From Methanobacteriota archaeon (GTDB lineage: Archaea > Halobacteriota > Methanomicrobia > Methanomicrobiales > Methanomicrobiaceae): a DNA stretch of 64,000 nt. The stretch covers positions 1-64,000 of the forward strand of contig JAENZA010000005.1 in the NCBI GenBank assembly GCA_016841485.1, read 5' to 3'. Position numbers and translations under genes: made by a program. Of the stretch, positions 24,124 to 34,463 are shown piece after piece (the stretch's first letter is position 1; every line of letters starts with the position of its first letter). Under the pieces are notes generated by a model, which saw nothing but the letters and a program-made list of their open reading frames with translations, was not told where the DNA came from and did not search any database.

Positions 24124-24411
24124 TCACCCTCCTGCAACAGGGGGGAAGAGGGCGATGATATCCCCGTCTTCGATTATTGTATCGAGTCCCTCTATAAAAT
24201 GGATGTTTCTCCCGTTTTTCAGGATATTGACATATTTTCTGAGGTCCCCCGTCTCAGTGAACAACATTTTCCCGAGACCGTCGTACCGGGTGGTGATCAC
24301 GTCCAGCACCATGCGTATGGTTGCTCCCCCGGCAATGTTGAGGACAACGGTGGCGTCCGCCACCTCACGAAAGGTTGCGAATGTTTTTACGGTGATGGAT
24401 ACGGTTTGCAT
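24124..24411 (-). CDS. moaD: MoaD/ThiS-family ubiquitin-like protein
   Basis: Start refined to MQTVSITVKTFATFREVADATVVLNI; C-terminal ...DIIALFPPVAGG. Confidence 0.85.
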   Translation of the reverse strand: MQTVSITVKTFATFREVADATVVLNIAGGATIRMVLDVITTRYDGLGKMLFTETGDLRKYVNILKNGRNIHFIEGLDTIIEDGDIIALFPPVAGG

Positions 24412-24506
24412 GGTCGCAATTGTTGCAGGAGGGGTGGTGGCAGACCGTTCGGGAGGGCCGTTCATCCCCCCGTGGCGACCTGCAACGTGTGTTTCTTCCC
24501 GATTTT

Positions 24507-26291
24507 TTAGTGAATGCCCAGTTCCTTCAGTTTTCCGGTGGTCGGTACGCCTGTTTCATCCCATCCGCGTACGGCGTAGTATTCCTTCAGGAGTTCGTCA
24601 CGGTGCCAGACCATGCCCTTCGGGGCACCTTCCTGCAGCGGTTCGCTGAGCAGGCGTTCGGGGAGGGTGTCTGCATCCATCCCGATGCCTCTGTCGAGAT
24701 TGAAGAGTTTCTGGAGGTTCCAGATGCGTTCCCCGGCTGTCATCACTTTTGCCGCATCGAATGGTATGCCGGTGGCCGCGGTCATGAGGTCCGCATAATC
24801 GTCGGCATTGAGAGAGAACACGGTGAATAGGCACATGCCCAGTGCATCAATTGCGGCTGTGAGGTCCTGGTAGGTTCTCACCCATTCAGGTTTGTTCACC
24901 GTCTCGTACGGGTCGATTTTCTCCGGTGACCCGAGGACTTCAGGTGAGATCAGGTATGCGTATACGTGGTCGCCCCCCCGCACGGAGGTCGCATAGGCAA
25001 GCCCCTGTCCCTGGAGTCCCCTCGGGTCGTAGGCGGGTAGTTCCTGCTTTTTCACGCTCATCGAGAGTTCCGGGTGACCGTAGCGCTCGGCAAACCGGTA
25101 AGACCCGTCTGCAAGTTCCTCCCCGATGCCTTCCCGTGTTGCCATCTGCCTGAGCACGGCAAGCATGCCGTCGGCATCGCCGAAGCGGATGGGATGGTCC
25201 ACGTATCCCTTCTCTGCCATCTCCATCAGGCAGGCGATGGTGGCACCGGCAGAGACCGCATCGAGGCCGTATTCGTTGCAGATACTATTCGCCTTGGTGA
25301 CCGCTATCAGGTCATCGATGCCGCAGTCCGGGCCGAATGCCCAAATGGGTTCATACTCCGGCCCTTCACCGGTTTTGCCCTCGATCTCATGGACTCTTCC
25401 GCACCGGATGATACAGGCATAGCACCCCTTCGCCTTCTTGAAGATGGTTTCTTTTATCGTCTCGCCGGATACCTTCTCCGCCTCCTCGAAGTGTGCGGTC
25501 TGGAAATTATTGGTGGGGAGGATGTAGTTTTCGTTGATGATGTTGACGAGAACGGCGGTGCCGTAGTCCTGGATGGACTTTGAGACGCCCTCCGCTTCGA
25601 TTTTCCCCCGGATGCGGTCCTTGATGAGGTTCAGGCTATCTTCGTCGGCGACACCGATCTTCTGCTCTCCCCGTACTGCAATGGCCTTGAGATTCTTCGA
25701 CCCCATCACGGCCCCGCACCCGCCGCGTCCAGCCGCCCGGTATTTTTCATTGATTACGCAGGTGATAAGCGAGAGCTGTTCCCCGGACGGCCCGATGCAG
25801 GCGACCCGTATCTTTGTATCATCATGCTCCTGCTGGATGATATCCGTCGTCTCACCGGTCGTCCTGCCCCAGACGTCTGCGGCGTCAAAGAGGGAGACCT
25901 CTCCGTTATCCAGGAAGAGATATACCGGTTTGGGGGCCTTTCCGGTGATGACAGCGGCGTCAAATCCCGCTTTTTTCATCTTCCAGCCGAAGACTCCGCC
26001 GCTGTTGGAGCTGATGGCGCATCCCGTCAGTGGGGAGAGGGTTGATATTTCATACCTGCTTCCGAGCGGTATACCCGTCCCGGTCAGGGGTCCGGTGGCG
26101 AACACCAGGGCATTGTCCTCACTCAGGGGATCGGTTCCGGGAAGCACCATGTCGGTGAGGAACCTGATTCCAAAGCCCCTGCCGCCGATATATTCTTCCT
26201 TCATTGATTGCGGGGTTGGTTTGACCTTTACCGTTCCCGCACTCAAGTCGATATACGCAATATTGCCTGCATATGCATCCATTACACTCAC
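24507..26291 (-). CDS. aor: Aldehyde:ferredoxin oxidoreductase
   Basis: 594 aa; AGNIAYIDLSAGTVKVKPTPQSMKEEYIGGRGFGIRFL...RAAGRGGCGAVMGSKNLKAIAVRG. Confidence 0.92.
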   Translation of the reverse strand: MSVMDAYAGNIAYIDLSAGTVKVKPTPQSMKEEYIGGRGFGIRFLTDMVLPGTDPLSEDNALVFATGPLTGTGIPLGSRYEISTLSPLTGCAISSNSGGVFGWKMKKAGFDAAVITGKAPKPVYLFLDNGEVSLFDAADVWGRTTGETTDIIQQEHDDTKIRVACIGPSGEQLSLITCVINEKYRAAGRGGCGAVMGSKNLKAIAVRGEQKIGVADEDSLNLIKDRIRGKIEAEGVSKSIQDYGTAVLVNIINENYILPTNNFQTAHFEEAEKVSGETIKETIFKKAKGCYACIIRCGRVHEIEGKTGEGPEYEPIWAFGPDCGIDDLIAVTKANSICNEYGLDAVSAGATIACLMEMAEKGYVDHPIRFGDADGMLAVLRQMATREGIGEELADGSYRFAERYGHPELSMSVKKQELPAYDPRGLQGQGLAYATSVRGGDHVYAYLISPEVLGSPEKIDPYETVNKPEWVRTYQDLTAAIDALGMCLFTVFSLNADDYADLMTAATGIPFDAAKVMTAGERIWNLQKLFNLDRGIGMDADTLPERLLSEPLQEGAPKGMVWHRDELLKEYYAVRGWDETGVPTTGKLKELGIH

Positions 26292-26441: not shown

Positions 26442-28337
26442 TTAGTCATAGATCCTGTGTTCGGCACTCTGCAGGATTTTCTGCAGCATCTCCGGATAGG
26501 ATATCCTCGCAAGGGCGGCCATCTTGGCCAGGTGCCCGTCCCAGCACCAGCCGGGGTTCGGGTTGACCTCGAGAAGACGGGGAGTGCCGTTATGGTCAAG
26601 GCGCCAGTCAAAGCGTGCATAATCCCTGCATTTCAGTCTCCCGAAGAGCTTCAGGCAGCTTGCGACAAGGAATCTCTGCACGTCTTCGGAGAGGTGTGCC
26701 CGGACAGACCTGAGGTTCCAGTAAGGCGAGGACGGGTCCCATTTCGCCTCATACCCGCATATCCGTGGATAGGAAGAGGGAAGGGCCGAGTAGTCCTCCT
26801 CGATTATTGGGAGCACCTCATACATGTCGGGAAGATTGCCGATGATCCCGACACTGACATCACTCCCCGAAAGGAATTCCTCGACGAGGATGGAGGTATC
26901 CTGACCGCAGCGCGCCCTGACATCCATGATTGCCTCCTGAAGTTGTGCTATGTCGGTACAGACACTCTTCATGGTGATACCGACGCTGGAGTCCCCAAGG
27001 TTCGGTTTGACGATGACCGGAAACCTGAGCGGCTGTTCGATGAACGAACTGTCGGCGGGGTTGATAAGAAAAGCCTTCGGGACAGGGATGTCAAGTTCAT
27101 GCGCCGCACCGCGTACCAGGGATTTGTCGTAACAGTAGGCAAGGCACTGTGGGCCCCCGCCGGTGTAGGGGATACCGAGCGTCTCAAGGACTGCCGGAAT
27201 ATGGAGTTCCTTGAGCGGGTCGTTGAAGAATCCCTCATCGCAGAGATTGAAGACGAAGTCGGTCTTCTTTCCCTTCTGCTGAAGGGCTCTGACAAGCGAG
27301 GCATGGTTGTCGACATAGGTGAAGGAATACTCATCGATGGCCGAAAGGGCCTTTTTGAGCTCCTCTATGGTGTGAAAATCATCCTCGTCAAAGACGCACG
27401 AAGGCCGGACCCGGTCCTTCAGACGGGGGTCGCCCATAACGACGGTGATGTTTCGTTTCGCGGAGGTAACCTGTTTTCTGCGGGTCCATGCCTTTTCCAC
27501 CCGTGACGTGATGACCAGGCGCCTGCCCATCATGCCGAGATCATGGTTTTTCCGGGATTTTGGAATGAGGGGGTCGTGGAAGGCGATGTCCCGGTAGCCG
27601 CACTCTTCAAGCATATCCCGGATGCGTTCCCGGCTATACAGGCGCTCTGCATAGAACTGATCGGCAAGCACCCCTTTTCTGACATGGGTGATGACCTCGC
27701 GGGAGATCAGTTTTTCCCCGTCCTCCGAGAGGCTGCGCTCACGGCATACGAAGTAGTTCTGGTCTATCCATTCCCAGCTGCGGGGTTCATAATGGTCCCT
27801 GAGATAGGCGCCGTCTGCGATATCCAGGAGGAGACCTCCCCCCGGTTTTACCACCCTGAACACTTCTTTGAGGATGTTTTTGTCATCCTCATATGATTCG
27901 AAGTAGCCGAAGCTGTTGCCAGGAATGAGAACATGATCGAACGTATCGGTCTGAAAGGCAAGTTTTCGTGCGTCTCCTTCCCGAAAATTCACGTTAAGTC
28001 CTTCGTTTTTCGCCTGCTTCTTTGCCCGGGTGATGAGGTAATGCGAACGGTCAAGGCCGGAGACTGTGGAAAATCCCCGTCGTGCAAGCTCCAGTGAGTG
28101 CCGTCCCTGGCCGCAGCAGAGATCAAGGATACTGTCGCCGGGCTGAAGGTCGAGGGCGCCGGAAAAGAGATCGACTTCTTCTGCGGTAATGCAGGTATCC
28201 TCAATGACATCACCGTCCGTACGGAGGTAGTTTGCATTGAAAATTTCCCTCCACCAGTCGGCCCTGACATAGCTCTCCAGGCTTTCTACAGGGCCAATAT
28301 AACTGGTTATTTTAGATTTAGGCGCATTTTTGCTCAT
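26442..28337 (-). CDS. Fusion: class I SAM methyltransferase + D-alanine-D-alanine ligase-like ATP-grasp
   Basis: ILDLCCGQGRHSLELARRGFSTVSGLDRS; then FPVIVKPNLGDSSVGITMKSV, EEFLSGSDVSVGIIGN, CRDYARFDWRLDHNGTPRLLEVNPNPGW. Confidence 0.85.
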   Translation of the reverse strand: MSKNAPKSKITSYIGPVESLESYVRADWWREIFNANYLRTDGDVIEDTCITAEEVDLFSGALDLQPGDSILDLCCGQGRHSLELARRGFSTVSGLDRSHYLITRAKKQAKNEGLNVNFREGDARKLAFQTDTFDHVLIPGNSFGYFESYEDDKNILKEVFRVVKPGGGLLLDIADGAYLRDHYEPRSWEWIDQNYFVCRERSLSEDGEKLISREVITHVRKGVLADQFYAERLYSRERIRDMLEECGYRDIAFHDPLIPKSRKNHDLGMMGRRLVITSRVEKAWTRRKQVTSAKRNITVVMGDPRLKDRVRPSCVFDEDDFHTIEELKKALSAIDEYSFTYVDNHASLVRALQQKGKKTDFVFNLCDEGFFNDPLKELHIPAVLETLGIPYTGGGPQCLAYCYDKSLVRGAAHELDIPVPKAFLINPADSSFIEQPLRFPVIVKPNLGDSSVGITMKSVCTDIAQLQEAIMDVRARCGQDTSILVEEFLSGSDVSVGIIGNLPDMYEVLPIIEEDYSALPSSYPRICGYEAKWDPSSPYWNLRSVRAHLSEDVQRFLVASCLKLFGRLKCRDYARFDWRLDHNGTPRLLEVNPNPGWCWDGHLAKMAALARISYPEMLQKILQSAEHRIYD

Positions 28338-29283: not shown

Positions 29284-31557
29284 TTACACCTCATAGGCCA
29301 TATGAACGAGGTTTGCACAGATCACCCGGAGCATGAGCTTCCCCGGTGAAGGAGGGATATGCCGTGAGAACGCTTCCCATTCAGCCTCAATTTCCTCTAT
29401 GGCTTTTTTTGAGCAGTCTTCGAGAGCACCCGATATACGTACCAATTCGATACCTTCCCGGAGGACGGTTGCATCCGTCCTGAGTTCCGGGGTGCAGAGG
29501 ATGGCGCATAAACGGTCGGATCGTTTCCGGTCGAGCATATCGAGCGCACGCAGAATGACATAGGTCGGCTTGCCGTTTCTGAGATCCTCCCCGGGACTCT
29601 TCCCCCATGTCGGATCACCGGAAAAGTTCAGTACATCATCGATGATCTGGAAACTTATGCCCATGGTCCTGCCGAAGTGCAGGCATGCCGCACGGGTCTC
29701 TTGAGGTACTTCCTTTAGGATACAGGCAAGCTCGGCGACGCCTTCGGTTGCAGAGGCGGTTTTGTAGGCATACATCTGGAGCACCTGCTCATCGAGGCGT
29801 TCGTCTCTCCACCTGCTCAGAGTCGCGGGGGAGAGGTTTTTTGACCAGAATATGTCCTGCCCCTGGCCGAGATGGGCCCGAAGAGACGTATCGGTCATCA
29901 GCCGGAGCACCCGGTGCTTCTGGTCCGGGGTCAGGTCGCTGCACGAGGAGACAATGTTCTGGGGAAAGAAATACAGGGTACTGGCCGCATTGATGGCAAT
30001 ATCCGTCCCGTACCGCCGGTGGATGGCCTCGTCTCCCCGGCGGAGGAGGGATTCATCCTCGATATCATCGATGATGAGTGCCGCGGAATGCAGGAGTTCG
30101 GTCATCACGAAGAGCTTCTCCGTCTCTTCGGTGAACCGGACCCCCACCGCATCGGCGATGAGGATGCCGAAGATCGGGCGCCAGTGTTTTCCCTGGCGTG
30201 AGAGGAGGTCCCAGACGGGCCGGGAGATGGTCTGTGTAAACGGCGTGTAGTCGATGACGGGCTGGGATTCCCCGAAAAGGGCTGTGCACCACTTCTCGTC
30301 TATCTCCCGGGGGAAGAGCTGTTCGAGACGTTCATTGATCTTTGGCTCAAAACGTCCGACAAAATCGGATACATCGGCAATGAACCCGTATCCGCAGAGT
30401 TCCAGCTGGCCGCGTCCGGATATGTCATCTGTTCCTATGCGGCCGGAGACACGTCCCGACCCTTCCCAGAGCCCGCCATCCATCCCGATGATCTCGATCT
30501 CCTGCTCATCGATATCGGGGGTGAACCGCAGGGCCGCGTCAAGTGCGGGAATGGAAAATTCCCACTCGACGGGGTAATGGATGTGCGTCCGCGGGCTCTC
30601 CCATATACGCAGGGGCCTTACCGTTATCTCAGACTGCCAGGTTGCATTTCCATCCTTTGAAAAGAGGATGCAAAACGTCGAGACCGTCTCTTTTGACCGG
30701 AGATTTCGCCGGTGCATGAGCATCAGGTTGCGGCCGTCATCCAGCTGTATCCCGCACCAGTCCCAGCCGAGGGGATGGTAGCAGGGTTCGCTCTCTTCAT
30801 CCGCATGATCGATATCCTCTTCATCCAGAAACCACGTCGTCCCGCCCGACTGATAATCGCACCACGCCTCTCCGGAGACGGGCACCCCGCCTGCGATCCC
30901 CTGGAGCTTCAGGCGCGGGCAGGTAATATACTGCATCCCGATCTCATCCGGCGGGGCAAGGGTGGAGAGGTCGGTGAAGGGCATTTGCGGGACCATTGCG
31001 CATGAAATGGTTTCTCCATGCGTTGTGTCACGGAAGGTTGCGATGATCTCATCATCCACAAAAGAGATCCGGGCATCGTCCCACGTCACAGAGAAGGGGG
31101 TGCTCTCGATCTCCATCGTCGTCCCGGGGCAGGTGATGGGGGGGTAGAGGCCGTGTTCGGCAATTTCCCGCCGGATGGTATCACTGACGTACCTGCTCAC
31201 CCCGAGTTTGTCAGGGAAGGCATCGAGCTGTCCGAGGTACCATGTATGCAGCGGATTATCCAATCGCATTTCCCTGTGGTGAACCCCTGTCATGGTGTCA
31301 ACCACGGAGCAGAGATACATCGCACCGGGTATACTCTTTGCCTCACCGGGAATATTCCCGCCTTCCGGGAGACGAAGAGAAAAGGAACAGATCACGAAAT
31401 TTCGCCGTTCTATACCCTCACCCTCAAAAAACCCCTGCACATACCACCACCGGACAAAGGGCCCGTTCTCCTCCGGGGCCACCCGACAGACGATATCCGC
31501 TGGAAACCCCGGTGATCCGGTCCTCTCCGTATCTATTCTTGCCACCTCATTCCACAA
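29284..31557 (-). CDS. Fusion: CrtC/AttH lipocalin-like domain + polyprenyl synthase
   Basis: N-terminal CYHPLGWDWCGIQLDDGRNLMLMHRRN; C-terminal ALIIDDIEDESLLRRG (DDxxD) and FQIIDDVLNFSGD (second Asp motif). Confidence 0.8.
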   Translation of the reverse strand: MWNEVARIDTERTGSPGFPADIVCRVAPEENGPFVRWWYVQGFFEGEGIERRNFVICSFSLRLPEGGNIPGEAKSIPGAMYLCSVVDTMTGVHHREMRLDNPLHTWYLGQLDAFPDKLGVSRYVSDTIRREIAEHGLYPPITCPGTTMEIESTPFSVTWDDARISFVDDEIIATFRDTTHGETISCAMVPQMPFTDLSTLAPPDEIGMQYITCPRLKLQGIAGGVPVSGEAWCDYQSGGTTWFLDEEDIDHADEESEPCYHPLGWDWCGIQLDDGRNLMLMHRRNLRSKETVSTFCILFSKDGNATWQSEITVRPLRIWESPRTHIHYPVEWEFSIPALDAALRFTPDIDEQEIEIIGMDGGLWEGSGRVSGRIGTDDISGRGQLELCGYGFIADVSDFVGRFEPKINERLEQLFPREIDEKWCTALFGESQPVIDYTPFTQTISRPVWDLLSRQGKHWRPIFGILIADAVGVRFTEETEKLFVMTELLHSAALIIDDIEDESLLRRGDEAIHRRYGTDIAINAASTLYFFPQNIVSSCSDLTPDQKHRVLRLMTDTSLRAHLGQGQDIFWSKNLSPATLSRWRDERLDEQVLQMYAYKTASATEGVAELACILKEVPQETRAACLHFGRTMGISFQIIDDVLNFSGDPTWGKSPGEDLRNGKPTYVILRALDMLDRKRSDRLCAILCTPELRTDATVLREGIELVRISGALEDCSKKAIEEIEAEWEAFSRHIPPSPGKLMLRVICANLVHMAYEV

Positions 31558-31754: not shown

Positions 31755-34463
31755 TCAGGGGGCCGGGTGGTAATCACCGGCCCTCGTCTGAGGGGGGAGG
31801 AGCCGGACGATGCCGCTGCCCCCGTCAATCTCGACCCACTGTCCGTCTTCAAAGAGGTCCGTCGCCCGAAATACCCCCACCACACAGGGAATGCCGTATT
31901 CCCGAGCGATGATGGACCCGTGCTGCAGCAGTCCTCCCACCTCAAGAACGACCCCTCCGGCCGTGAGGAAGAGCGGGGTCCATCCGGGATCAGAGGCACT
32001 GATGACCAGGATGTCGCCCGGATGAACCTCTTTTTCGGCAGGGTGGTGAAGCACCCTGACCTGGCCGCGGGCGGTACCGGCGGAGACCCCGTATCCGCGA
32101 AGGTCACTGCCGTCCGCGACCTGTGCGGGAGAGTGCAGAATACGGCCGGTGGAGTCGATGACCGGCGGATAGCGGCGGACCGCATCCATCATTTCATACC
32201 ATCCTCTGTTCTCTGCGACCGTCCGGTGCATCATCATGTCCGGGTGGTCGAGCGCGGACTGGAGGTCCTGAAAAGAGAGGCAGAAGACGTCCTCTGTCGC
32301 ATGGATCTGGCCCCGCGATGCGAGACGCTCTCCTGCTGCAAGGGCCCGCCTGCGTACCCGTGATGTCACGAGGACAAGGTAGTATTTGTGGTCTTCCCGG
32401 ACGCCCCCGAAGGTATCGATGAGGGCATACATCCGCAGAAAGAGCTGTTCCCAAAGCCTGCCCTTCTTCCTGCAGAAGGTTTGCAGGAGGCGGCAGGCCT
32501 CCTCACGGCGGCGCCGTTCCTCTTCAAACCGTGCGGCCGGGCCGTCCCCCTGTCGTGAGGCCTCTGCGTAGTTTCGCAGCTGTGCAAGGATCTGTCGGGT
32601 TTGTCCGGCATATCCCGGTGACGCCGGGTCGATCTCCCGTGGCCCCCGAAAACCGTAGGTCTCCATAAAACGGGTCCATTCCGCCATGAATGCATCCGGC
32701 ATCTCCTCACGTTCTATTCTGTCAGCGAGAATGGTTGCGTCCTCAAAGACGGCCGGCCCTGCATGACGGGAAAGCCGGGAGAGGGAGAGGGCCATCTCGG
32801 TTGTCCGGTTATTGGGAAGGGCCCGGTCAACCCTGTCGGCAAGGGCCCGGCAGTCATCCGGTGCCTTCGCGAACATCCTGCGGATCACCATGCGGGCACA
32901 CTCGGAATTGATGAGGGTTGATCCGGTCTTCTCCTTCACCCACCAGACGATCAGGCGTCCCGCCCCCTCACAGAAATCAGTAAATGACAGGTCCTGCGTC
33001 TCGAGGTCGTCGAGGGCCGCCATGAATGCATCGGCAGATGCCCGGCATTCACATGATACCGCTTCCGGGGAGACAAACCCGTGTGCGGCATGGAGCAAGA
33101 GGTCGCGTGACTGCCAGAGCGATGCGGCCGTAATCCCGCGGAGAAGCGGGGGCCGTGCCGGACTCCTCCATTCCCGCGGGTCACAGGCCTGGATGATCCC
33201 GGCGGAGGATGCGTCCAGGCCACCGAACAGGAGGGCGATCATTTCCGGGTTCATAATCCAGAGAAGGTTGGAGACGTTGAGGTACATCCGTCCCTCCACC
33301 ACCTGGGCAATCCCGTTGGCGGCATCGCGGCCGACGCGGGGGTGACCGGTAAGCGCCTCAAGGGTGTAGCCCAGGACAAGGTCCATCCAGGATGACCCCA
33401 GCGGTGAGAGGGCACCCTGCATCCCGTGTTCGACCAGGGTCAGGTCCAGGTACATCCGTCCGGGCGAATCCCCGTGGGTACGCAGGATCTCCGGCAGAGG
33501 GATGAGGGTTGTTATCGGGCGGGCCTGGAGGAGCAGGATCTCCCCGTTCTGCAGGGCCCATTCGACATCGACGGGACACCCGTACAGCTCCTCCACCCGG
33601 CAAACGAGGTCCCGCAGGAGAACGGCATAGCGTGTCTCCAGGCAGAATTCATCGCTGCGGTAGTCATGGCGTTTCCGGACCTCTCCGTCGGGATCAAGAA
33701 AGAGGGCCGTCTCCTTTACCCCCGTCTTTCGTGTAAGAAACGTGGTCCCGCGCCTGGGCAGCACCAGCTCGTCGGGGGACGTCTGTCCCGAGACGATGCT
33801 CTCTCCAAGGCCCCACCCTGCGTTGATGACCACCTCTTCCCTGCTGTTGGTCACCGGGTTTGCTGAGAATGCGATGCCCGAGACGTCGGCAGGGATCATT
33901 TCCTGGACGATGACGGCCATCTGCGGTGCTTCGGGGCCGCAGCTGTTCCCTGGACGATAGGAGAGCACCCGCTGCTCAAAACAGGAAGCAAAGACTTCGC
34001 GTATTGCATCCTCAAGCCCTGCCGTCGGAACGCCAATCTTCGTCCGGTAGAGCCCTGCAAACGATGCCTCCCCGAGATCCTCGGCGGGCGACGACGAGCG
34101 GACCGCCCAGAGGCCGGTGCCGGGACCAAGGCGTCGGAGCGACTGTTTGAGGGCCTCCTGCTGGACAGGTGAAAACAGGAGGGTCTTGGAATGGTCCTGC
34201 AGTGCCTGCACGATGGAGTCGGGGACGGCATCTTCAGATGCCGCGAGGGTGCGCCAGGCGTCCGTTTCCCTGAGTGATGCAGACCACGGATCAAAGAACG
34301 TGGTGGGGAGCACACACCCGGGAGGGACCGGAAGGCCTGCCCTGCTCAGCCGCATCAGGGAGTATGCCTTCCCCCCTGCCTCCTCGATGGGTATGGGTTC
34401 ATCTTCCCCTGGGAAAAAGACCGGTTTCCTGTTCGTTTGCATCCGTCGTTCTCCTTGCACCAA
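31755..34463 (-). CDS. PEP/pyruvate-binding phosphotransferase (PEP synthase / rifampicin phosphotransferase-like)
   Basis: GGKAYSLMRLSRAGLPVPPG; AVRSSSPAEDLGEASFAGLY; C-terminal GGLLQHGSIIAREYGIPCVVG swivelling-His motif. Confidence 0.88.
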   Translation of the reverse strand: MVQGERRMQTNRKPVFFPGEDEPIPIEEAGGKAYSLMRLSRAGLPVPPGCVLPTTFFDPWSASLRETDAWRTLAASEDAVPDSIVQALQDHSKTLLFSPVQQEALKQSLRRLGPGTGLWAVRSSSPAEDLGEASFAGLYRTKIGVPTAGLEDAIREVFASCFEQRVLSYRPGNSCGPEAPQMAVIVQEMIPADVSGIAFSANPVTNSREEVVINAGWGLGESIVSGQTSPDELVLPRRGTTFLTRKTGVKETALFLDPDGEVRKRHDYRSDEFCLETRYAVLLRDLVCRVEELYGCPVDVEWALQNGEILLLQARPITTLIPLPEILRTHGDSPGRMYLDLTLVEHGMQGALSPLGSSWMDLVLGYTLEALTGHPRVGRDAANGIAQVVEGRMYLNVSNLLWIMNPEMIALLFGGLDASSAGIIQACDPREWRSPARPPLLRGITAASLWQSRDLLLHAAHGFVSPEAVSCECRASADAFMAALDDLETQDLSFTDFCEGAGRLIVWWVKEKTGSTLINSECARMVIRRMFAKAPDDCRALADRVDRALPNNRTTEMALSLSRLSRHAGPAVFEDATILADRIEREEMPDAFMAEWTRFMETYGFRGPREIDPASPGYAGQTRQILAQLRNYAEASRQGDGPAARFEEERRRREEACRLLQTFCRKKGRLWEQLFLRMYALIDTFGGVREDHKYYLVLVTSRVRRRALAAGERLASRGQIHATEDVFCLSFQDLQSALDHPDMMMHRTVAENRGWYEMMDAVRRYPPVIDSTGRILHSPAQVADGSDLRGYGVSAGTARGQVRVLHHPAEKEVHPGDILVISASDPGWTPLFLTAGGVVLEVGGLLQHGSIIAREYGIPCVVGVFRATDLFEDGQWVEIDGGSGIVRLLPPQTRAGDYHPAP

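Follow-up and report, generated by a model that had tools for sequence, protein, structure and literature searches.

A double-lipocalin domain of the AttH/CrtC superfamily fused to a trans-prenyl-diphosphate synthase in Methanomicrobiales

The stretch of DNA analysed here (64,000 nt, positions 1 to 64,000 of contig JAENZA010000005.1 of the Methanobacteriota assembly GCA_016841485.1, hereafter called the window) contains a gene in which a lipocalin-like domain precedes a polyprenyl synthase. This raises the question whether a single polypeptide may both synthesise and modify an isoprenoid, as was predicted in the initial annotation.

A single open reading frame encodes both domains

The gene had been placed correctly at positions 29284-31557, and it reads on the minus strand, where position 31557 down to 29284 forms a single open frame of 757 codons; the plus strand across the same interval contains many stops. 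The start codon is uncertain, with a TTG or the GTG codons at positions 5, 26 and 40 of the frame as alternatives, and inspection of the start region revealed neither a clear ribosome-binding site nor an ATG close by. The exact choice of start leaves the domains unaffected, since similarity to relatives begins at approximately residue 33. The window comes from a draft assembly of 288 contigs (completeness 91%, contamination 3%). Independent assemblies of many genomes contain the fused frame uninterrupted, which excludes chance and confirms that the lipocalin-synthase fusion is real and conserved. The AlphaFold model of the whole protein (mean pLDDT 85.8, pTM 0.84) consists mainly of beta strands up to approximately residue 390 and is all-alpha from approximately residue 396. 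The gene thus encodes an AttH/CrtC-superfamily lipocalin fused to a prenyl-diphosphate synthase with intact motifs, with the following features:

29284..31557, minus strand: fused AttH/CrtC-type lipocalin and trans-prenyl-diphosphate synthase, 757 aa, TTG start, uncertain
30373..31470, minus strand: N-terminal double-lipocalin domain, residues ~30-395 (Pfam, AlphaFold/Foldseek)
31441..31452, minus strand: RWWY (residues 36-39), with W37 aligned with CrtC W110 (alignment)
30856..30858, minus strand: D234 (in GEAWCD), aligned with the CrtC catalytic acid D268 (alignment)
30757..30765, minus strand: W265-D-W267, aligned with CrtC W283/W285 (alignment)
29287..30372, minus strand: C-terminal trans-prenyl-diphosphate synthase domain (residues 396-757), type-III GGPP-synthase-like (Pfam, fold, alignment, tree)
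30055..30069, minus strand: first Asp-rich motif DDIED (residues 497-501), followed by an RRG motif
29626..29640, minus strand: second Asp-rich motif DDVLN (residues 640-644)

The C-terminal domain resembles type-III GGPP synthases

The C-terminal part had been described as a trans-prenyltransferase with both Asp-rich motifs, and this description was borne out by a match of residues 442-688 to PF00348 (polyprenyl_synt; E 2.9e-52, 177.8 bits against a gathering threshold of 27), with DDIED at D497-D501 and DDVLN at D640-N644. These two motifs as well as RRG, YKTAS and GKPTY are all present and conserved, including the diphosphate-binding lysines of KT and GK, and a Foldseek search of the C-terminal half against the PDB returned GGPP and polyprenyl synthases (1wy0, 4jyx, 2dh4, 6v0k).

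Alignment of the chain-length residues together with the overall similarity gave the signature of type-III (eukaryotic-type) GGPP synthases. Between the first Asp-rich motif and helix F the sequence can be aligned with that of human GGPP synthase, with LYF and AHLGQGQDIFW in register, and the best matches of the segment following the first motif are GGPP synthases, namely those of human and yeast and the domains found in fungal bifunctional terpene synthases. The residues kept in this segment presumably correspond to Y107, F108 and H139 of yeast GGPP synthase. The second motif of eukaryotic GGPP synthases is DDxxN, and with the human (2q80) and yeast (2dh4) enzymes the window protein shares this type of second motif, DDxxD with RRG, and the aligned IN-A-YF and H-GQG-DI-W residues; it differs from them by its lipocalin fusion and by its position in a separate clade, to which stand-alone synthases of haloarchaea and Streptomyces also belong. 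In a tree of 48 synthase domains, all fusions and these stand-alone enzymes were separated from the methanogen IdsA proteins (support 100/99), and the archaeal IdsA equivalog NF040698 was reached with 109 bits versus the 468 bits of its cut-off. The organism encodes a separate IdsA on another contig.

A single shared clade of fusions was rejected, as the fused synthase domains form two clades, next to which the stand-alone synthases of haloarchaea and Streptomyces are placed. The haloarchaeal stand-alone synthases (L074-L087) belong to the same subfamily as the fusion and are distinct from methanogen IdsA; no obvious lipocalin gene lies beside the synthase in the four haloarchaeal loci viewed. 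The second motif is weaker in the group B fusions described below and in several verrucomicrobial copies (DDIQS, NDIHC, NDIVD), which may therefore make a different product.

The N-terminal domain is an AttH-type double lipocalin with partial conservation of CrtC catalytic residues

The initial assignment of the N-terminal part to CrtC/AttH holds at the level of the superfamily, by Pfam and by fold, with the qualification that the domain is AttH-type and far from photosynthetic CrtC. Pfam PF17186 (Lipocalin_9) matches residues 264-390 (E 4e-24, 85.7 bits against a gathering threshold of 26.2). The double-lipocalin fold was recovered by Foldseek against the PDB, with the AttH protein NE1406 (2ich) as first match (E 1.9e-16) and kievitone hydratase (7a0t, E 5e-12; also 7a0q) among the best matches after it. 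2ich was also found by sequence alone with a profile of the fusion (E 2.5e-28), and it is the closest match of the domain in both fold and sequence. The CrtC N-terminal model PF07143 did not match the window protein at E 0.01 in the Pfam search, unlike its relatives, which do match this model. An HMM of the fusion N-domain reached Roseobacter CrtC at E 0.03 and stand-alone AttH-type proteins at ~1e-33 to 1e-45.

AttH-type proteins are free-standing, unlike the window domain, and several of the bacterial AttH-type genes sampled directly follow ABC/FtsX-type permease genes. Kievitone hydratase, which hydrates a double bond in a prenyl group (PMC5805349), shares 12% identity with the window domain and is a secreted fungal isoflavonoid enzyme without a synthase domain. 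The carotenoid 1,2-hydratase CrtC (PF07143), represented by the enzymes of Rubrivivax gelatinosus and Roseobacter litoralis, has the superfamily fold in common with the window protein, and its targets are terminal double bonds of prenyl chains (PMC12402844); unlike the window protein it is not fused to a synthase, its sequence is very remote, and no carotenoid cluster surrounds the window fusion.

The positions required for CrtC catalysis can be located in the alignment. CrtC activity is largely or entirely abolished by mutation of D268, W110, W283 or W285 (PMC12402844), and alanine mutants of H239, W241, Y266 and D268 are inactive or nearly so (PMC4717167), with a spacing in Roseobacter litoralis CrtC of H-29, W-27, Y-2, D, W+15 and W+17. 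When the window protein is aligned with this CrtC, D234 takes the position of D268, W37 that of W110, and W265/W267 those of W283/W285. The signature named in the initial annotation, GWDWCGIQLDDGRNLMLMHRR, was found at residues 264-284, and it includes two residues that matter, since its two tryptophans are those aligned with W283 and W285. The remaining three positions are not kept: Y266 is replaced by W232, and there are no His or Trp equivalents of H239 and W241. D234 is conserved in every fusion examined from archaea, Verrucomicrobiota and Tolypothrix, and the lipocalin retains an invariant core in archaeal and bacterial fusions alike. The acid, WxW and WWY are also present in stand-alone AttH-type proteins, and they thus represent a feature of the superfamily rather than proof of hydration. 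Judged by these residues, hydratase activity of the lipocalin domain is plausible.

Most relatives carry a DHxWG motif, which is replaced by DYQSGG or DCQAGG in the clade of the window protein, a clade with a long branch in the tree of N-domains. The D of this motif occupies the CrtC D268 position and is kept in this clade, while H239 and W241 lie 27-29 residues before it; an equation of the His and Trp of DHxWG with H239 and W241 was therefore ruled out by the published numbering and the Roseobacter litoralis spacing (PMC12402844, PMC4717167).

The fusion is sporadically distributed in archaea and bacteria

Whole-genome searches detected the fusion, intact or broken, in 15/232 genomes of the class, spread over three Methanomicrobiales families. 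Group A comprises the copies of families f1 and f4 (the window, L004, L018, L020, L047-L050, a broken copy in G072 and a remnant in G098), and group B those of family f6, with 28-46% identity to the window protein in the aligned pieces. The fusion was also present in 4/287 genomes of one verrucomicrobial class, in one further genome from a wider search of the phylum (G890), and on plasmids of Tolypothrix and Streptomyces canus. A plasmid protein of Nitrosomonas stercoris contains the synthase with a strongly diverged N-terminal half, and its gene (L091:7368-10873) adjoins a flavin monooxygenase-like gene. The search for the same fusion that the initial annotation had suggested thus returned copies from archaea, Verrucomicrobiota, Tolypothrix and Streptomyces, and no description of this architecture was found in the open-licence full-text literature searched. 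The N-domain tree is compatible with a single origin of the fusion, albeit with a small sample of stand-alone proteins.

Both domains are under purifying selection, with dN/dS in the window's clade of ~0.09-0.14 for the synthase and 0.19-0.53 for the N-domain, which evolves approximately twice as fast as the synthase. In the trees, L020 (family f1, from another genus) nests among the f4 copies, and the synonymous distance between L020 and L047 (0.6-0.7) is smaller than that between the window and L018 (0.9-1.1), even though the latter two belong to the same genus; this suggests that the fusion, together with the partner gene described below, was transferred between families. The copy in G072 (L056, 9820-11281) has an internal deletion removing approximately residues 340-573, the first Asp-rich motif included, and only a remnant is left in G098. 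These broken copies indicate that the gene pair is an accessory trait and the locus dispensable.

A fragment with 61% identity on another contig of the window's assembly (G000 contig C144, L058) was rejected as a second copy of this organism, since it is ~91% identical and collinear with the f4 genome G098 and has the same internal deletion; it is most likely a binning contaminant. In this fragment and in L057, the deletion remnant consists of the start of the rifampin-phosphotransferase-like partner gene joined directly to the fusion's end. In G027 (contig C1; L017, L018, L019), an 18.7 kb stretch with the gene pair occurs three times at contig ends with 99-100% identity, representing either recent tandem amplification or an artefact of long-read assembly.

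A phosphotransferase-like gene accompanies the group A fusions

Directly upstream of the fusion lies a gene for a protein related to rifampin phosphotransferases:

31755..34463, minus strand: PPDK_N (ATP-grasp) and PEP-utilizers (swivelling His) protein, 902 aa, upstream of the fusion (domains, profile matches)

The His motif GGLLQHGSIIAREYG is retained in this 902-aa protein. Among solved structures, 5fbs and 5hv1 come closest (E ~1e-73), both entries of Listeria rifampin phosphotransferase (Rph); the ATP-grasp and His domains are held in common with these, and the middle, substrate-binding domain does not align, leaving the rifamycin-binding domain unrepresented. The protein scores 336 bits with the Rph model NF041857, versus a cut-off of 999 bits. 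A partner of ~900 residues is found directly upstream of the fusion in the same orientation, at ~125-250 bp, in 9/9 group A genomes, whereas a strong match (>900 bits) occurs in 1/223 of the remaining genomes, G024; the search detected no fusion in that genome, and its homologue (L119) is followed by two tandem alpha/beta hydrolase genes. A Fisher test of the association gave p 2e-15, which, the genomes being related, describes a fixed gene pair rather than a probability. The methanogen group B fusions occur without this partner gene.

Other lineages have other partners. The Tolypothrix plasmid gene (L089:9370-13899) encodes a 1509-aa single chain that combines sulfotransferase, glycosyltransferase, CrtC, Lipocalin_9 and polyprenyl synthase domains; genes for a DevC-type ABC exporter adjoin it. 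The fusion in G890 is flanked by genes for a GT28-type protein and for HMG-CoA synthase. At two verrucomicrobial loci a squalene-hopene-cyclase-like gene (L005:9011-10978 and L066:2419-4071) overlaps the 3′ end of the fusion; its DxDD site reads DADTT or EADTA, close to the DxDTT that bacterial drimenol synthases have (PMC9128629). In the genome of the window, the search for a squalene-hopene-cyclase-like gene yielded weak repeat matches alone, on contig C49. Each of these partners either decorates a hydroxyl group or belongs to isoprenoid metabolism, which is the best circumstantial argument that the intermediate is an alcohol.

Proposed function and alternative explanations

We propose, with a probability of roughly 0.45 for the reading as a whole (its steps depend on one another, and the last is loosely formulated), that the fusion is a bifunctional terpenoid enzyme, which makes GGPP and hydrates or cyclises it by acid catalysis in the lipocalin domain, and that the product is then phosphorylated by the partner in the window's clade. 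The C-terminal domain would condense IPP with allylic diphosphates, and on the type-III signature a C20 chain, GGPP, is its likely product. This chain or a derived alcohol would be handed over to the cavity between the two lipocalin barrels, where D234 could protonate a double bond, with the resulting cation stabilised by W37, W265 and W267 and quenched either by water, to a tertiary alcohol, or by ring closure; we consider the chances of such protonation evenly balanced. A C20 substrate would be within reach of a CrtC-type fold, since C12-C20 terpenes serve as in vitro substrates for hydration by CrtC (PMC12402844). More tentatively, and at slightly worse than even odds, the rifampin-phosphotransferase-like partner would move phosphate from ATP to the hydroxyl of this product or of a related substrate, a role which glycosyl-, sulfo- or cyclase partners may take over in other lineages. 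The earlier prediction of synthesis and modification in one polypeptide is therefore favoured by the fusion, the folds and the retained acid and tryptophans, and weakened by the replacement of H239, W241 and Y266 and by the occurrence of the conserved residues in AttH-type proteins at large; the shared D and W positions may be structural, which would argue against hydration or cyclisation. Also counting against the proposal are the loss of DHxWG and the long branch of the window's clade, the presence of the phosphotransferase-like gene in G024 without a fusion, and the group B fusions that lack this gene.

The main rival explanation is a non-catalytic lipocalin that binds lipid as a cradle, taking up or shielding the long prenyl product and passing it to the phosphotransferase-like protein, a glycosyltransferase or a cyclase. 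Lipid binding is common among lipocalins and AttH-type relatives have no known reaction, and the missing H239/W241/Y266 equivalents, the loss of DHxWG in the window's clade and the faster evolution of the N-domain would all fit such a role. However, the acid and the three tryptophans needed for CrtC catalysis are kept even in this fast-evolving clade, and kievitone hydratase and CrtC, the two relatives of this fold whose activity is known, are both enzymes; we regard a cradle as rather unlikely. Alternatively, the N-terminal domain may act as a cyclase or an isomerase and not as a hydratase, with protonation leading to a cyclic terpenoid as in the fungal bifunctional proteins, whose synthase domains resemble that of the window protein; the acid mechanism of CrtC has also been described as analogous to that of squalene-hopene cyclase (PMC4717167). 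The documented members of the fold with tested activity are hydratases, though, and the separate cyclase-like gene adjoining the fusion in Verrucomicrobiota would then be redundant, which makes this explanation improbable.

The sporadic distribution and the broken copies in G072 and G098 could also indicate that the protein is an ordinary chain-length synthase and its lipocalin a passenger in decay. This is very improbable given the purifying selection on the lipocalin, the invariance of its core across archaea and bacteria, and the presence of IdsA in the same organism.

Under the preferred reading of a bifunctional enzyme, the closest functional parallels would be the fungal PvCPS, fusicoccadiene and stellatatriene synthases, which likewise combine chain synthesis and modification in one polypeptide and have a related GGPP-synthase domain; the other domain of these synthases is a terpene cyclase of alpha-helical fold, in contrast to the beta-barrel lipocalin of the window protein. 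If the domains act in series, a single protein would both assemble a prenyl chain and introduce a tertiary alcohol (or a ring) without a cofactor, representing a beta-barrel counterpart to these fungal enzymes. It would also imply a Methanomicrobiales terpenoid other than the ether lipids, and provide a test of the role of the large family of AttH-type lipocalins. The recurrent fusion probably marks an undescribed terpenoid pathway. Doubtful, by comparison, is the wider proposal of a new class of prenyl synthase/hydratase-type enzymes that make undescribed hydroxylated and headgroup-decorated (phosphorylated, glycosylated, sulfated) C20 isoprenoids in methanogens, Verrucomicrobiota, cyanobacteria and Streptomyces. 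The recurrence of partners that decorate alcohols makes the hypothesis directly testable.

Other genes near the fusion

Two further loci were noted on the minus strand of the window. The gene at 26442-28337 encodes a methyltransferase fused to an ATP-grasp domain of the D-Ala-D-Ala-ligase type and is conserved in L004 and L018, and at 24124-26291 an aldehyde ferredoxin oxidoreductase gene adjoins that of a SAMP1/MoaD-like ubiquitin-fold protein.
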